DNA of 64,000 nt. Source: Herminiimonas sp. GTDB taxonomy: Bacteria; Pseudomonadota; Gammaproteobacteria; Burkholderiales; Burkholderiaceae_D. The stretch is from assembly GCA_014377845.1 (NCBI GenBank), contig JACMOV010000224.1, forward strand, positions 26,404 to 90,403, written 5' to 3'. The translations under genes and the position numbers were made by a program. Shown one piece after another: positions 20,780 to 24,786 of this stretch; the first letter of the stretch is position 1; every line of letters begins with the position of its first letter. The notes under the pieces are model-generated. The model did no database searches, was not told where the DNA came from, and saw only the letters and a list, made by a program, of their open reading frames with translations.

Positions 20780-23700
20780 TTAGCCGATGTTTGGCGCCAG
20801 CCAGCGTTCGACCTCGTCCTTCGAAACCCCGCGCCGGCGCGTCATGTCCGTGACCTGATCGTCGCCGATCTTGCCGACGCTGAAGTACTTCGAATCCGGA
20901 TGGGCGAAGTAGAAACCGCACACCGAGGCGCCCGGAAACATCGCGAAGGATTCGGTGAGCTGCATGCCGATCTCCTCGCACTGCAGCAGCTTGAACATGT
21001 CGGCCTTGACCGTATGTTCCGGGCAAGCCGGATAGCCGGGCGCGGGCCGGATGCCGCGATAGGTTTCGGCGATCAGGGCCGCCCTGTCGAGCGACTCGTC
21101 GGGCGCAAATCCCCACAGGTCGGTGCGAACCCGTTCGTGCAGTTGTTCTGCAAAGGCTTCGGCCAGGCGGTCGGCGAGCGACTTGAGCATGATCGACGAA
21201 TAGTCGTCATGCGCATCCTCGAAGCGCTTTTCATGCTTCTCGATACCGATGCCCGCAGTGACCGCGAACAGGCCGATGTAGTCGGCCACGCCCGACGATT
21301 TCGGCGCGATGAAATCGGCCAGGCACTGGTTCGGCCGCGCCACGCCGTCGATTACCGGCTTGACGCCCTGTTGCCGCACGCCGTAGTAGGTGAAGGCGAC
21401 GTCGGTGCGAGTGTCGTCGGTGTAGATCTCGATGTCGTCGTCGTTGACGCTGTTGGCCGGCATCATGGCGATCACGCCGTTGGCCGACAGCCAGCGGCCG
21501 TCGATGACTTTCTTGAGCAGCGCCTGCCCTTCTTCGAACACCTTGCTGGCCGATTCGCCCACCACCGGATCAGTCAGGATGGCCGGAAACGGACCGGCGA
21601 GGTCCCAGGTCTGGAAGAACGGGCCCCAGTCAACGTATTGCGCCAGCAGGCCGAGATCGACATTCTTGAACACCCGGCGGCCAATGAACTTGGGCTTTTG
21701 CGGTGCATCCGCGCCGTCGAAGCGCACCACCATCCGGTTGAGGCGGGCCTGCGCCAGGCTCAGCAGCGGCGTCGCCTTCTTGTTCGCATGCTGGATGCGG
21801 ATGCGTTCGTAGTCGACCGCGATCTCTTCGATGTAGGCGTCGCGCTGCTCGGGCGTGAGCAGCGACTGCGCCACCGAGACCGAGCGCGAGGCGTCGGCAA
21901 CGTACACCACCGGACCATCGTAGTTCTGCGCGATTTTCACCGCCGTATGCGCACGCGAGGTGGTCGCGCCGCCGATCAGCAGCGGCGTCTTCAGGCCGCG
22001 GAAATACGGATCGCGCTGCATCTCCTTGGCCACATACGCCATCTCTTCGAGCGACGGCGTGATCAGTCCCGACAGGCCGATGATGTCGGCGTTCTCGGCC
22101 TTGGCACGGGCCAGGATTTCGGCGCACGGCACCATCACGCCCATGTTCACGACTTCGAAGTTATTGCACTGCAGGACCACCGAGACGATGTTCTTGCCAA
22201 TGTCGTGGACGTCGCCCTTGACGGTGGCGATCACGATCTTGCCCTTCGGTTTGGCGGCGACGCCGGTGCGCCGCTCTTCCAGCAGTTTCTCGGCTTCGAT
22301 GTACGGAATCAGATGGGCCACCGCCTGCTTCATGACGCGCGCCGACTTGACCACCTGCGGCAGGAACATCTTGCCCTGCCCGAACAGGTCGCCGACGATG
22401 TTCATGCCATCCATCAGCGGGCCCTCGATCACATGGATCGGCCGGCCGCCGTTGACCAGCAGTTCCTGGCGCGCTTCCTCGGTGTCCTCGACGATCCATT
22501 GCGTGATGCCGTGTACCAGTGCATGCGCCAGCCGCTTCTGGACCGTGCCTTCGCGCCAGACCAGCGTCTCTTCTTCCTTCTTGCCGCCGGCCTTCAAGGT
22601 GCCGGCGAATTCGATCATGCGCTCGGTGGCATTCAGATTGTCGGGATTGTCGCCGGTCACAGGGCGGTTCAGGACCACGTCCTCGACGCGCTCGCGCAGT
22701 TCCGGCGACAGCTCGCTATAGACGCCCATCATGCCGGCATTGACGATGCCCATCGTCATGCCGGCCTGGATCGCGTGGTACAGGAAGACGGTATGAATCG
22801 CTTCGCGCGCCGGGTCGTTGCCGCGGAAGCTGAAGCTGACGTTGGAGACGCCGCCGCTGATCTTGGCATGCGGCAGGTTCGCCCTGATCCAGCGGGTGGC
22901 GTTGATGAAATCGACCGCGTAGTTGTTGTGCTCGTCGATGCCGGTGGCAATCGCAAAGATGTTCGGATCGAAGATGATGTCTTCCGGCGGAAAACCGACC
23001 TGCGACACCAGCAGCTTGTAGGCGCGTTCGCAGATCTCGATCTTGCGCTCGTAGGTATCGGCCTGGCCCTTCTCGTCGAAAGCCATCACGATCACCGCCG
23101 CGCCGTAGCGCCGGCACAGGGTGGCCTGGCGCAGGAACTCCGCCTCGCCTTCCTTCATCGAGATCGAGTTGACGATCGCCTTGCCCTGCACGCATTTCAG
23201 ACCGGCTTCGATGACCGACCATTTCGACGAATCGATCATGATCGGCACCCGTGCGATGTCGGGCTCGGAGGCGATCAGGTTCAGGAAGCGGGTCATGGCG
23301 GCGACCGAATCGAGCATCGCTTCGTCCATGTTGATGTCGATGATCTGCGCGCCGTTTTCCACCTGCTGGCGGGCGACCGTCAGCGCTTCGTCGTACTGCT
23401 CGTTCAGGATCAGGCGGGCGAAGGCTTTGGAGCCGGTGACATTGGTGCGCTCGCCGACGTTGACGAACAGCGACGCGTCGTCGATCGTGAAAGGCTCCAG
23501 GCCGGACAGACGCATCGCCGGCGCCACCTCGGGCAGCTTGCGCGGCGCGATCTTCGCCACGACCTCGGCGATCGCGCGGATGTGGGCCGGCGTGGTGCCG
23601 CAGCAGCCGCCGGCGATGTTGACGAAGCCGCTCTCGGCAAAATCCTGCAGCAGCGACGAGGTCACGTCCGGGGTTTCGTCGAAGCCGGTATCGCTCATCG

Positions 23701-24574
23701 GATTGGGCAGGCCGGCATTCGGATAGATGCTGACGAAGGTGTCGGCGATCTTCGACAGTTCCTCCGCATAGGGGCGCATCAGCGCTGCACCGAGCGCGCA
23801 ATTCAGGCCGACGGTCAGCGGGCGCGCATGCCGGACCGAATTCCAGAACGCCGGTACGGTCTGCCCCGACAGGATGCGGCCGGAGGCATCGGTGACGGTG
23901 CCGGAGATCATGATCGGCAGGGTCTTGCCGGATTCCTCGAAAAACTGGTCGATCGCAAACAGCGCTGCCTTGCAATTGAGCGTGTCGAAAATCGTCTCCA
24001 CCAGCAGCACGTCGGCACCGCCTTCGACCAGGCCGCGAGTTTGCTCCAGGTACGCCGCCACCAGCTGGTCGAAGGTGACATTGCGCGCAGCCGGATCGTT
24101 GACGTCGGGCGAAATCGACGCGGTCTTCGGTGTCGGCCCGAGTGCGCCGGCGACGAAGCGCGGCTTGTCCGGCGTCGAATACTTGTCGCAGGCAGCCCGT
24201 GCCAGGCGTGCGGCGGCGACGTTCATCTCATAGGCGAGCTCGCCCATCTGGTAATCATCCTGCGCCACCGAGGTCGCACCGAAGGTATTCGATTCGATCA
24301 GGTCGGCGCCGGCGGCCAGGTACTGTTCGTGGATTTCGCTGATGATGTGCGGCTGCGTCAGGCACAGCAACTCGTTGTTGCCCTTGACGAAAACTTCCTT
24401 GCCGGGCGGCGCGAAATCGGCAAAGCGCGTACCGCGATAGTCTGCTTCCGACAGGTGGTATTGCTGAATCATCGTGCCCATCGCGCCATCGAGAACGAGG
24501 ATGCGGCGCGCGAGCAGGTCACGCAGGATGGATTCGGTAGTCGACATGCTCGAAGGTACGGCGTCGCGTTTCAT
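20780..24574 (-). CDS. metH: Cobalamin-dependent methionine synthase
   Basis: Full-length enzyme of 1264 residues, transferring the methyl group of methyltetrahydrofolate to homocysteine through B12. Domains in order: homocysteine-binding barrel (about 10-335) with zinc ligands Cys259, Cys324 and Cys325 (GGCCGTTP), pterin-binding barrel (about 360-630), B12 cap and cobalamin domain (about 660-900) with the base-off ligand His790 in GDVHDIGKN, and the AdoMet-binding reactivation domain (about 930-1264) with [13 protein letters not shown]. The ATG at 24574 has GGAA 6 nt upstream; ATG 24547 ([11 protein letters not shown]) is an alternative. Expression is probably controlled by the SAM-II-like leader directly upstream. 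Confidence 0.97.
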
Positions 24575-24583
24575 GAAAATTCC

Positions 24584-24620
24584 AAAAAAATAACCCGGAA
24601 CTGCGTGAGCGGGGCCGGGT
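24584..24620 (-). terminator. Intrinsic terminator in the metH leader
   Basis: On the minus strand the stem ACCCGG/CCGGGT (24615-24620 with 24593-24598) encloses CCCCGCTCACGCAGTT and is followed by TA and a run of seven U residues (24584-24590), ending 10 bp before the metH ATG. Its position between an aptamer-like sequence and the start codon indicates premature termination control. Confidence 0.75.
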
Positions 24621-24629
24621 CATTCCGCG

Positions 24630-24712
24630 AGCCGCTTTAGCAGTATTTTTAAGTGGGACTGGACCCTGGCGCCCGCAAGCTGGTTTGACTGGGAAATCAA
24701 ATCGGCGCCGGC
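24630..24712 (-). promoter_or_regulatory. SAM-II-type riboswitch candidate upstream of metH
   Basis: Read on the minus strand, stem P1 is GGCGCC (24704-24709) paired with GGCGCC (24668-24673). The 5' strand is followed by GATTTG (24698-24703) and the 3' strand preceded by GCTTGC (24675-24680); TTAAAAAT (24645-24652) and GCTAAAG (24635-24641) come next. These are the conserved SAM-II blocks in the right order, and UUGC can pair with GCUAA as the pseudoknot. Extra small hairpins TTTGA/TCAAA and GGG/CCC sit in the loops, as in long-loop variants. AGCGG at the aptamer 3' edge (24632-24636) can pair with CCGCT (24608-24612), sequestering the terminator's 5' arm, so ligand binding should favour termination. 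Confidence 0.7.
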
Positions 24713-24786
24713 AAATTATACGGTAAAACCGGCGGTCGATTGCCACTGCTGGCGGTATCGCAGGCGCAGCGCCCCGCCCCGGCAGA

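Follow-up and report, generated by a model that had tools for sequence, protein, structure and literature searches.

We consider it highly probable that the metH leader described here combines a SAM-II-type core with two inserts for which hairpin folds are predicted and with a predicted intrinsic terminator, and that it likely ends transcription before metH when SAM binds. The leader lies on the minus strand of the window, the 64-kb stretch of DNA analysed as a whole, and is flanked by fmt (recognised by Pfam) on one side and by metH on the other. The identity of metH is given by TIGR02082, with 1682.9 bits against a cut-off of 1010.85. A preliminary description had proposed a terminator-coupled element of SAM-II type on metH, with extra loop hairpins, in a betaproteobacterium; the core, its recurrence in other genomes, covariance models, and the gene identity support that proposal, for a group that includes the Oxalobacteraceae.

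Layout of the leader and the predicted switch

Positions 24584 to 24720 of the minus strand contain all the SAM-II core blocks in the expected order, as read directly from the sequence, and the six blocks named in the preliminary description stand in the order and place given there (Table 1). TATAAT is followed, after six bases, by GCGCC-GAUUUGA, the L1 insert, CC-A-GCUUGC, a single G, GGCGC, the L3 insert, UUAAAAAUACU, and GCUAAAGCGG. GCGCC and GGCGC are complementary and make up the P1 stem that encloses L1, and GCUUGC is complementary by sequence to GCUAAAGC, as expected of the pseudoknot helices P2a and P2b. To the 3′ side of GCUAAAGCGG, there is a predicted ten-pair stem and then the seven U's. 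The core pattern GATTTGAN{3,33}GCTTGCN{10,40}GCTAAAG matches the window once, at 24635–24703, and it matches none of 100 dinucleotide-preserving shuffles. L1 and L3 of this copy are 17 and 27 bases long, as against 5–9 and 11–14 bases in the short-loop copies discussed below.

Table 1. Features of the metH leader and the downstream gene (window coordinates).
Feature	Position	Strand	Basis and remarks
Likely −10 box TATAAT	24715–24720	−	Sequence
P1, 5′ strand GCGCC	24704–24708	−	Sequence; partner 24669–24673; invariant in 43/43
GAUUUG block, loop L1	24698–24703	−	Sequence, pattern match
L1 hairpin ("gate"), 5′ strand UUUGAUU	24695–24701	−	Predicted fold; 95.3% of cells paired in 43 copies
L1 hairpin ("gate"), 3′ strand AGUCAAA	24684–24690	−	Predicted fold; form restricted to metH, 46/46
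CC-A-GCUUGC, 5′ strand of pseudoknot P2	24675–24683	−	Complementary to 24632–24641 with UA skipped; invariant in 43/43
P1, 3′ strand GGCGC	24669–24673	−	Sequence; alignment; short-loop covariance model
L3 inserted hairpin GGG...CCC, predicted	24655–24666	−	L3 folding test on metH copies
GCUAAAGCGG, 3′ strand of P2	24632–24641	−	Sequence; includes AGCGG (24632–24636), also the antiterminator 5′ strand
CCGCU, antiterminator 3′ strand, inside the terminator loop	24608–24612	−	5 bp in the window copy
Terminator hairpin, predicted	24589–24624	−	Predicted fold; 5′ arm 24615–24624, 3′ arm 24589–24598
Seven-U run	24584–24590	−	Sequence
metH, B12-dependent methionine synthase	20780–24574	−	TIGR02082 and five Pfam domains

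All 45 distinct long-loop metH copies have a TATAAT box with at most one mismatch, and in 43 of these the gap between it and GCGCC is 6 or 7 bases. The metH transcript therefore probably starts at or beside P1, and the aptamer is probably the first part to be transcribed. A stock promoter and terminator scan returned nothing at the leader on either strand; the terminator rule of that scan admits loops of 3–8 bases, and the loop of the window terminator has 16. Minimum-energy folding of the whole leader was no better than that of shuffled sequences (z of −0.22, with 85 of 200 shuffles as good), and no weight is placed on it here.

The terminator stem AAUGACCCGG/CCGGGUUAUU is present in the predicted fold of the leader. 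The preliminary description was right about its tail of seven U's and one base too generous about the distance to the start codon, since nine bases and not ten separate the run from the ATG at 24574. By a rule of our own, a hairpin ahead of a U run is found in 55 of 55 distinct metH leaders. AAAGCGG, the strand that closes the pseudoknot, is complementary to part of the terminator loop and 5′ arm. AGCGG, which is part of this strand, and CCGCU, in the terminator loop, lie exactly where the preliminary description had placed them; the antiterminator helix that was proposed from these two segments is supported across the group and is weak, at 5 bp, in the window copy. Over 43 metH leaders, the antiterminator helix scores 6.06 on average against 3.86 for shuffled loops; it exceeds the shuffle mean in 41 and is reached by no more than 5 of 100 shuffles in 26, and it is just 4 bp long in eight. 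The helix of the window copy is equalled by 11 of 100 shuffled loops. For the 19 distinct metX leaders, the two means are closer (4.58 versus 3.40), and p is at most 0.05 in six. Folding of the same 43 metH leaders gives the terminator a probability above 0.5 in 31 full-length transcripts and the antiterminator a probability above 0.5 in 32 transcripts cut before the terminator 3′ arm; in the window copy, the corresponding values are 1.00 and 0.10. The terminator and antiterminator pairs display no covariation above that of shuffles.

The arrangement suggests a switch as follows. At low SAM, AAAGCGG would pair with the terminator region as an antiterminator, and metH would be read. At high SAM, the pseudoknot formed by GCUUGC and GCUAAAGC would keep the AAAGC strand, leaving the terminator free to form and so turning metH off. 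SAM binding would thus likely break the antiterminator and end transcription.

The same aptamer might instead act mainly on translation or mRNA stability, the terminator being a minor or constitutive attenuator. The S. meliloti metA SAM-II, for which the available part of the report describes action on translation (PMC9373788), is a precedent for this, and the window copy itself has features that fit: an antiterminator of few pairs with a low probability in the cut transcript, a full-length fold that strongly favours the terminator, and a U run that ends close to the ATG. Nevertheless, the recurrence of a terminator-like hairpin in every metH leader scored and the antiterminator complementarity above the shuffle mean in 41 of 43 speak for control of termination, and we judge control mainly at the later steps unlikely.

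Assignment to SAM-II and distribution of the core

The Rfam model for SAM-II (RF00521, SAM_alpha) gives the window leader 11.4 bits (E of 4.9), well below its cut-off of 36. At the gathering threshold, Rfam has no matches in the 64-kb window, and a genome-wide SAM_alpha scan with an E limit of 0.001 gave none either, as was also the case in the control genomes. The gathering score of 36 bits is, in any case, a detection threshold and not a structural feature. The covariance-model check suggested in the preliminary description fails for the leader itself and succeeds for some of its short-loop relatives. Short-loop copies from three of the eight sources tested exceed the cut-off, namely those of a Rhodocyclaceae metX (42.5 bits), Ectothiorhodospira (41.9), and a Propionivibrio metH (40.1), the last of these betaproteobacterial; all three are beta- or gammaproteobacterial copies. 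Four further sources of the eight, two of them alphaproteobacterial (32.2 and 30.7 bits), score 30.7–34.7 bits (E of 0.00043–0.0052), below the cut-off, and the eighth, a Legionella copy, has no SAM_alpha match; eleven other sources of this kind have none at E up to 5.

A covariance model was built from 40 random draws out of the 83 distinct short-loop copies at named loci. With filters off, its two best matches in the window are the halves of the leader, at 20.8 and 19.5 bits, and the third has 9.7. With default filters, on 24 sources, the halves are joined into a single match of 27.1 bits (E of 1.1e-5), and all but one of the 24, the genome's own metX locus, give a match of at least 23 bits. 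Since the training copies had been found with a core-containing pattern, the model shows that the loops, and not the core, hide the leader from Rfam, and it does not amount to finding the core independently. The core letters GAUUUGA, AGCUUGC, and GCUAAAGC are identical to those in the copies that pass the Rfam SAM-II cut-off. The case for SAM-II therefore rests on a shared core, with relatives that pass the cut-off and a short-loop model that finds the leader; the leader is classed as a variant because its L1 and L3 are longer than in the short-loop copies. Neither the long-loop SAM-II model (RF01726) nor the SAH riboswitch model (RF01057) matches the leader at E up to 10, and there is no Rfam match to SAM-V.

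These results also bear on whether the motif is a SAM-II relative of changed specificity, which would share the core only and respond to another ligand, such as SAH, or to a protein. The L1 hairpin, which pairs the U's of GAUUUG, could signal an altered pocket. However, the identity of the three core segments with those of the Rfam-passing copies and the lack of an SAH-riboswitch match in the leader, in a genome that has one elsewhere, make such a change very unlikely. That SAH riboswitch (54.5 bits) and another match (38.9 bits) are on two other contigs, and the former precedes an open frame that by eye resembles ahcY; SAM and SAH sensing are thus probably split between operons. The SAH riboswitch match lies at the ends of the genome's contigs C133 and C53 (L228 and L229); the two ends seem to share one sequence, and the assembly has probably repeated a contig end there.

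That the metH-strand letters are merely the complement of a small RNA (Rfam RF02424, Bp2_287) encoded on the other strand is scarcely credible. Six such leaders among the 19 sources scanned do have opposite-strand matches (18.5–29.9 bits), but all six are far under the cut-off of 70, and the window leader has none with an E of 10 or less. The stock scan reports neither a promoter nor a terminator on the plus strand at the leader, and the TATAAT, the terminator, and the U run are all on the metH strand. Seen from the side of RF02424, which is listed as an sRNA, the match is to the opposite strand in six of six cases (L036, L025, L044, L052, L053, and L089), and the family may be the antisense strand of a SAM-II-type leader.

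The core is widespread. Of 146 genomes sampled from the family, 52, in 18 of 44 genera, matched the leader DNA in a similarity search. The exact core pattern including P1 was found in 159 of 393 family genomes (26 of 44 genera) and, at the level of the order, in 132 of 399 genomes (66 of 159 genera), and the backward pattern used as a control had zero matches in both scans. Among named genomes, at least 114 stretches, 80 of them listed, contain the core in alpha-, beta-, and gammaproteobacteria; Bosea, Maricaulis, Propionivibrio, Nitrosospira, Noviherbaspirillum, and Ectothiorhodospira are examples from the matches listed. In all, 204 distinct copies were gathered by leader similarity, by patterns, and from chosen places, so that they are not a random sample and the invariance of the core is partly by construction. 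Both loops are short in 122 of them. The downstream gene is metH in 60, metX in 62, and metZ in 39, and most classified copies precede methionine genes. The genome studied here has a single copy, at metH; on the coding strand of the first 1,700 bases of its own metX locus (L226, match from base 1501), GATTTG, GCTAAAG, and AAATAC are absent.

Several other arrangements were seen among the gathered loci. In six loci from other families of the order (L213–L217 and L196), a short-loop SAM-II copy with a terminator is followed in tandem by a diverged second copy, with GCGCCGAGTTAA or similar, CAACTTGC, and GCTAAAGCG in succession, near a GGAGG-like site (GGAGT in L196) and an ATG (MYDC...); in L213 and L216, the next open frame resembles a MATE transporter. 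A SAM-II-type core with an L3 insert stands ahead of a MetN-like ABC transporter ATPase in three contigs (L054, L116, and L146), two of them titled Legionella or Legionellaceae; the L116 ATPase scores 361.8 bits with TIGR02314, under the cut-off of 499.7. Nine loci (L056, L079, L080, L099, L100, L118, L158, L162, and L163) have short-loop copies upstream of one gene cluster, the single tested member of which is an SsuA-family sulfonate-binding protein (TIGR01728, 237 bits). L057 and L207 have two copies of the 5′ half GCGCCGATTTGA, some 50 bases apart, ahead of a metX-like gene. In L016 and L025, copies of RF02278, a family of toxic small RNAs from betaproteobacteria, are found no more than about 550 bases from the metH leader.

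The loop inserts and a possible pair of set points

When the folding of the loops in the 45 distinct long-loop metH copies is compared with that of single-letter shuffles, z falls under −1 for the L1 segment (with UUUG) in every copy (mean −3.42) and for L3 in 41 (mean −2.45), so that both fold better than their shuffles. Covariation was assessed on a plain sequence alignment of 43 metH copies with 500 shuffles. The P1 and pseudoknot pairs are without variation in these copies, so that they give no covariation for or against. The L1 helix changes on one side only. In L3, all four pairs have changed on both sides, with 74.4% of cells paired. For the whole structure, paired cells amount to 94.4% versus 93.2%, more than in any of the 500 shuffles, and six shuffles reach the covariation score. 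Pairs changed on both sides number 4 versus 4.0 in shuffles (369 of 500 have as many), and sliding the structure by one column gives a covariation score just as high (0.086 versus 0.081). As to the compensatory changes that the preliminary description had suggested looking for in homologous leaders, the P1 and pseudoknot pairs are invariant and the L3 changes no more numerous than in shuffled columns. As covariation leaves the matter undecided, the evidence for the hairpins is the folding test. The outer P2 pair (CC/GG at metH, UC/GA at long metX) at one point seemed compensatory; it was dropped because unpaired combinations occur, ACA with GGG 12 times and CCA with GAG three times.

In the predicted L1 helix, UUUGA of the GAUUUG block faces UCAAA, so that the three U's of the block are paired. 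Its mean energy is −3.62 kcal/mol (−2.8 in the window copy), and the mean without the three U's is −1.40. We take these U's to line the SAM pocket, as in the SAM-II crystal structure. If they do, the L1 hairpin and the bound state are mutually exclusive, at least in the UUU/AAA part, and the hairpin would need to open at least partially before SAM binds. In SAM-II, L1 and helix P2b together form a triplex, with the ligand as a bridge between the two (PMC5352136). With such a gate in place, more SAM would be needed before metH is shut off, and raising that level may be what the hairpin does.

The 46 distinct copies with the gate form (L1 hairpin UUUGAUU/AGUCAAA) are all upstream of metH, and the form is absent from the other 158 copies, among them 14 at metH, 62 at metX, and 39 at metZ. 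In 20 genomes chosen for having one copy of the gate form and a second, short-loop copy, the second copy precedes metX in every case; the gate copy is confirmed as preceding metH in 17 of the 20, three of the 17 having been matched to named loci indirectly. It is tempting to propose that Oxalobacteraceae-type cells run two SAM-II switches with different set points. The metX aptamer would be open; the metH aptamer would be gated by a hairpin that hides the pocket U's and is restricted to metH, so that metH would still be on at SAM levels that silence metX; and the betaproteobacterial metXZ element would be SAM-II. Taken jointly, we advance this tentatively, as a reading with a real but minority chance of holding. 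If it is true, the cell contains a natural pair of riboswitches of the same class, one with and one without a helix competing for the binding site, and such a pair makes the tuning of a set point by a local hairpin directly testable.

Comparison with known systems

The window leader has in common with SAM-II (RF00521) the segments GAUUUG, GCUUGC, UUAAAnA, and GCUAAAG, the layout of P1 and pseudoknot, and a methionine gene downstream. It differs in its two inserted hairpins, in reaching only 11.4 of 36 bits, in its place at metH, and in an L1 insert that pairs core U's. SAM-II long loops (RF01726) is, judged by its name, likewise a SAM-II variant with longer loops; it is listed for Bacteroidetes and marine samples in the accessible part of its description (PMC2864571), that is, for other taxa, and has no covariance-model match in the window leader. 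The pseudoknot and ligand-contacting bases of SAM-V are described, in the portion of the source available, as similar to those of SAM-II, with the final 3′ pairing element missing (PMC2704228); the window leader, in contrast, retains GCUU/AAGC. Control of termination by SAM-II has precedent in a prediction for S. meliloti metZ (PMC9373788, in part). Among the literature matches listed, in a search that covers a minority of subscription papers and in which metH also matches other words, there is no report of a betaproteobacterial SAM-II at metH or of a hairpin over the core part of L1.

The closest comparison is with the metXZ RNA element of betaproteobacteria. The available text of the 2014 study that presents it gives it six conserved regions, a pseudoknot that pairs regions 1–4 and 2–6, a terminator, and a proposed antiterminator, places it before metXW or metZ, and names no ligand there; the same text has SAM_alpha only in Rhizobiales and Rhodobacterales (PMC4239095). 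The short-loop copies gathered here also precede metX and metZ, and the element fits them as far as a comparison by description alone can go. The reported element differs in being at metX or metZ with one copy per genome, whereas the window leader is at metH. As short-loop SAM-II copies stand before the same genes, we infer that metXZ is SAM-II, and it is probably of the same family as this leader. If so, the betaproteobacterial element described in 2014 without a ligand would be supplied with one, and it would be explained why the Rfam model misses these metH switches.
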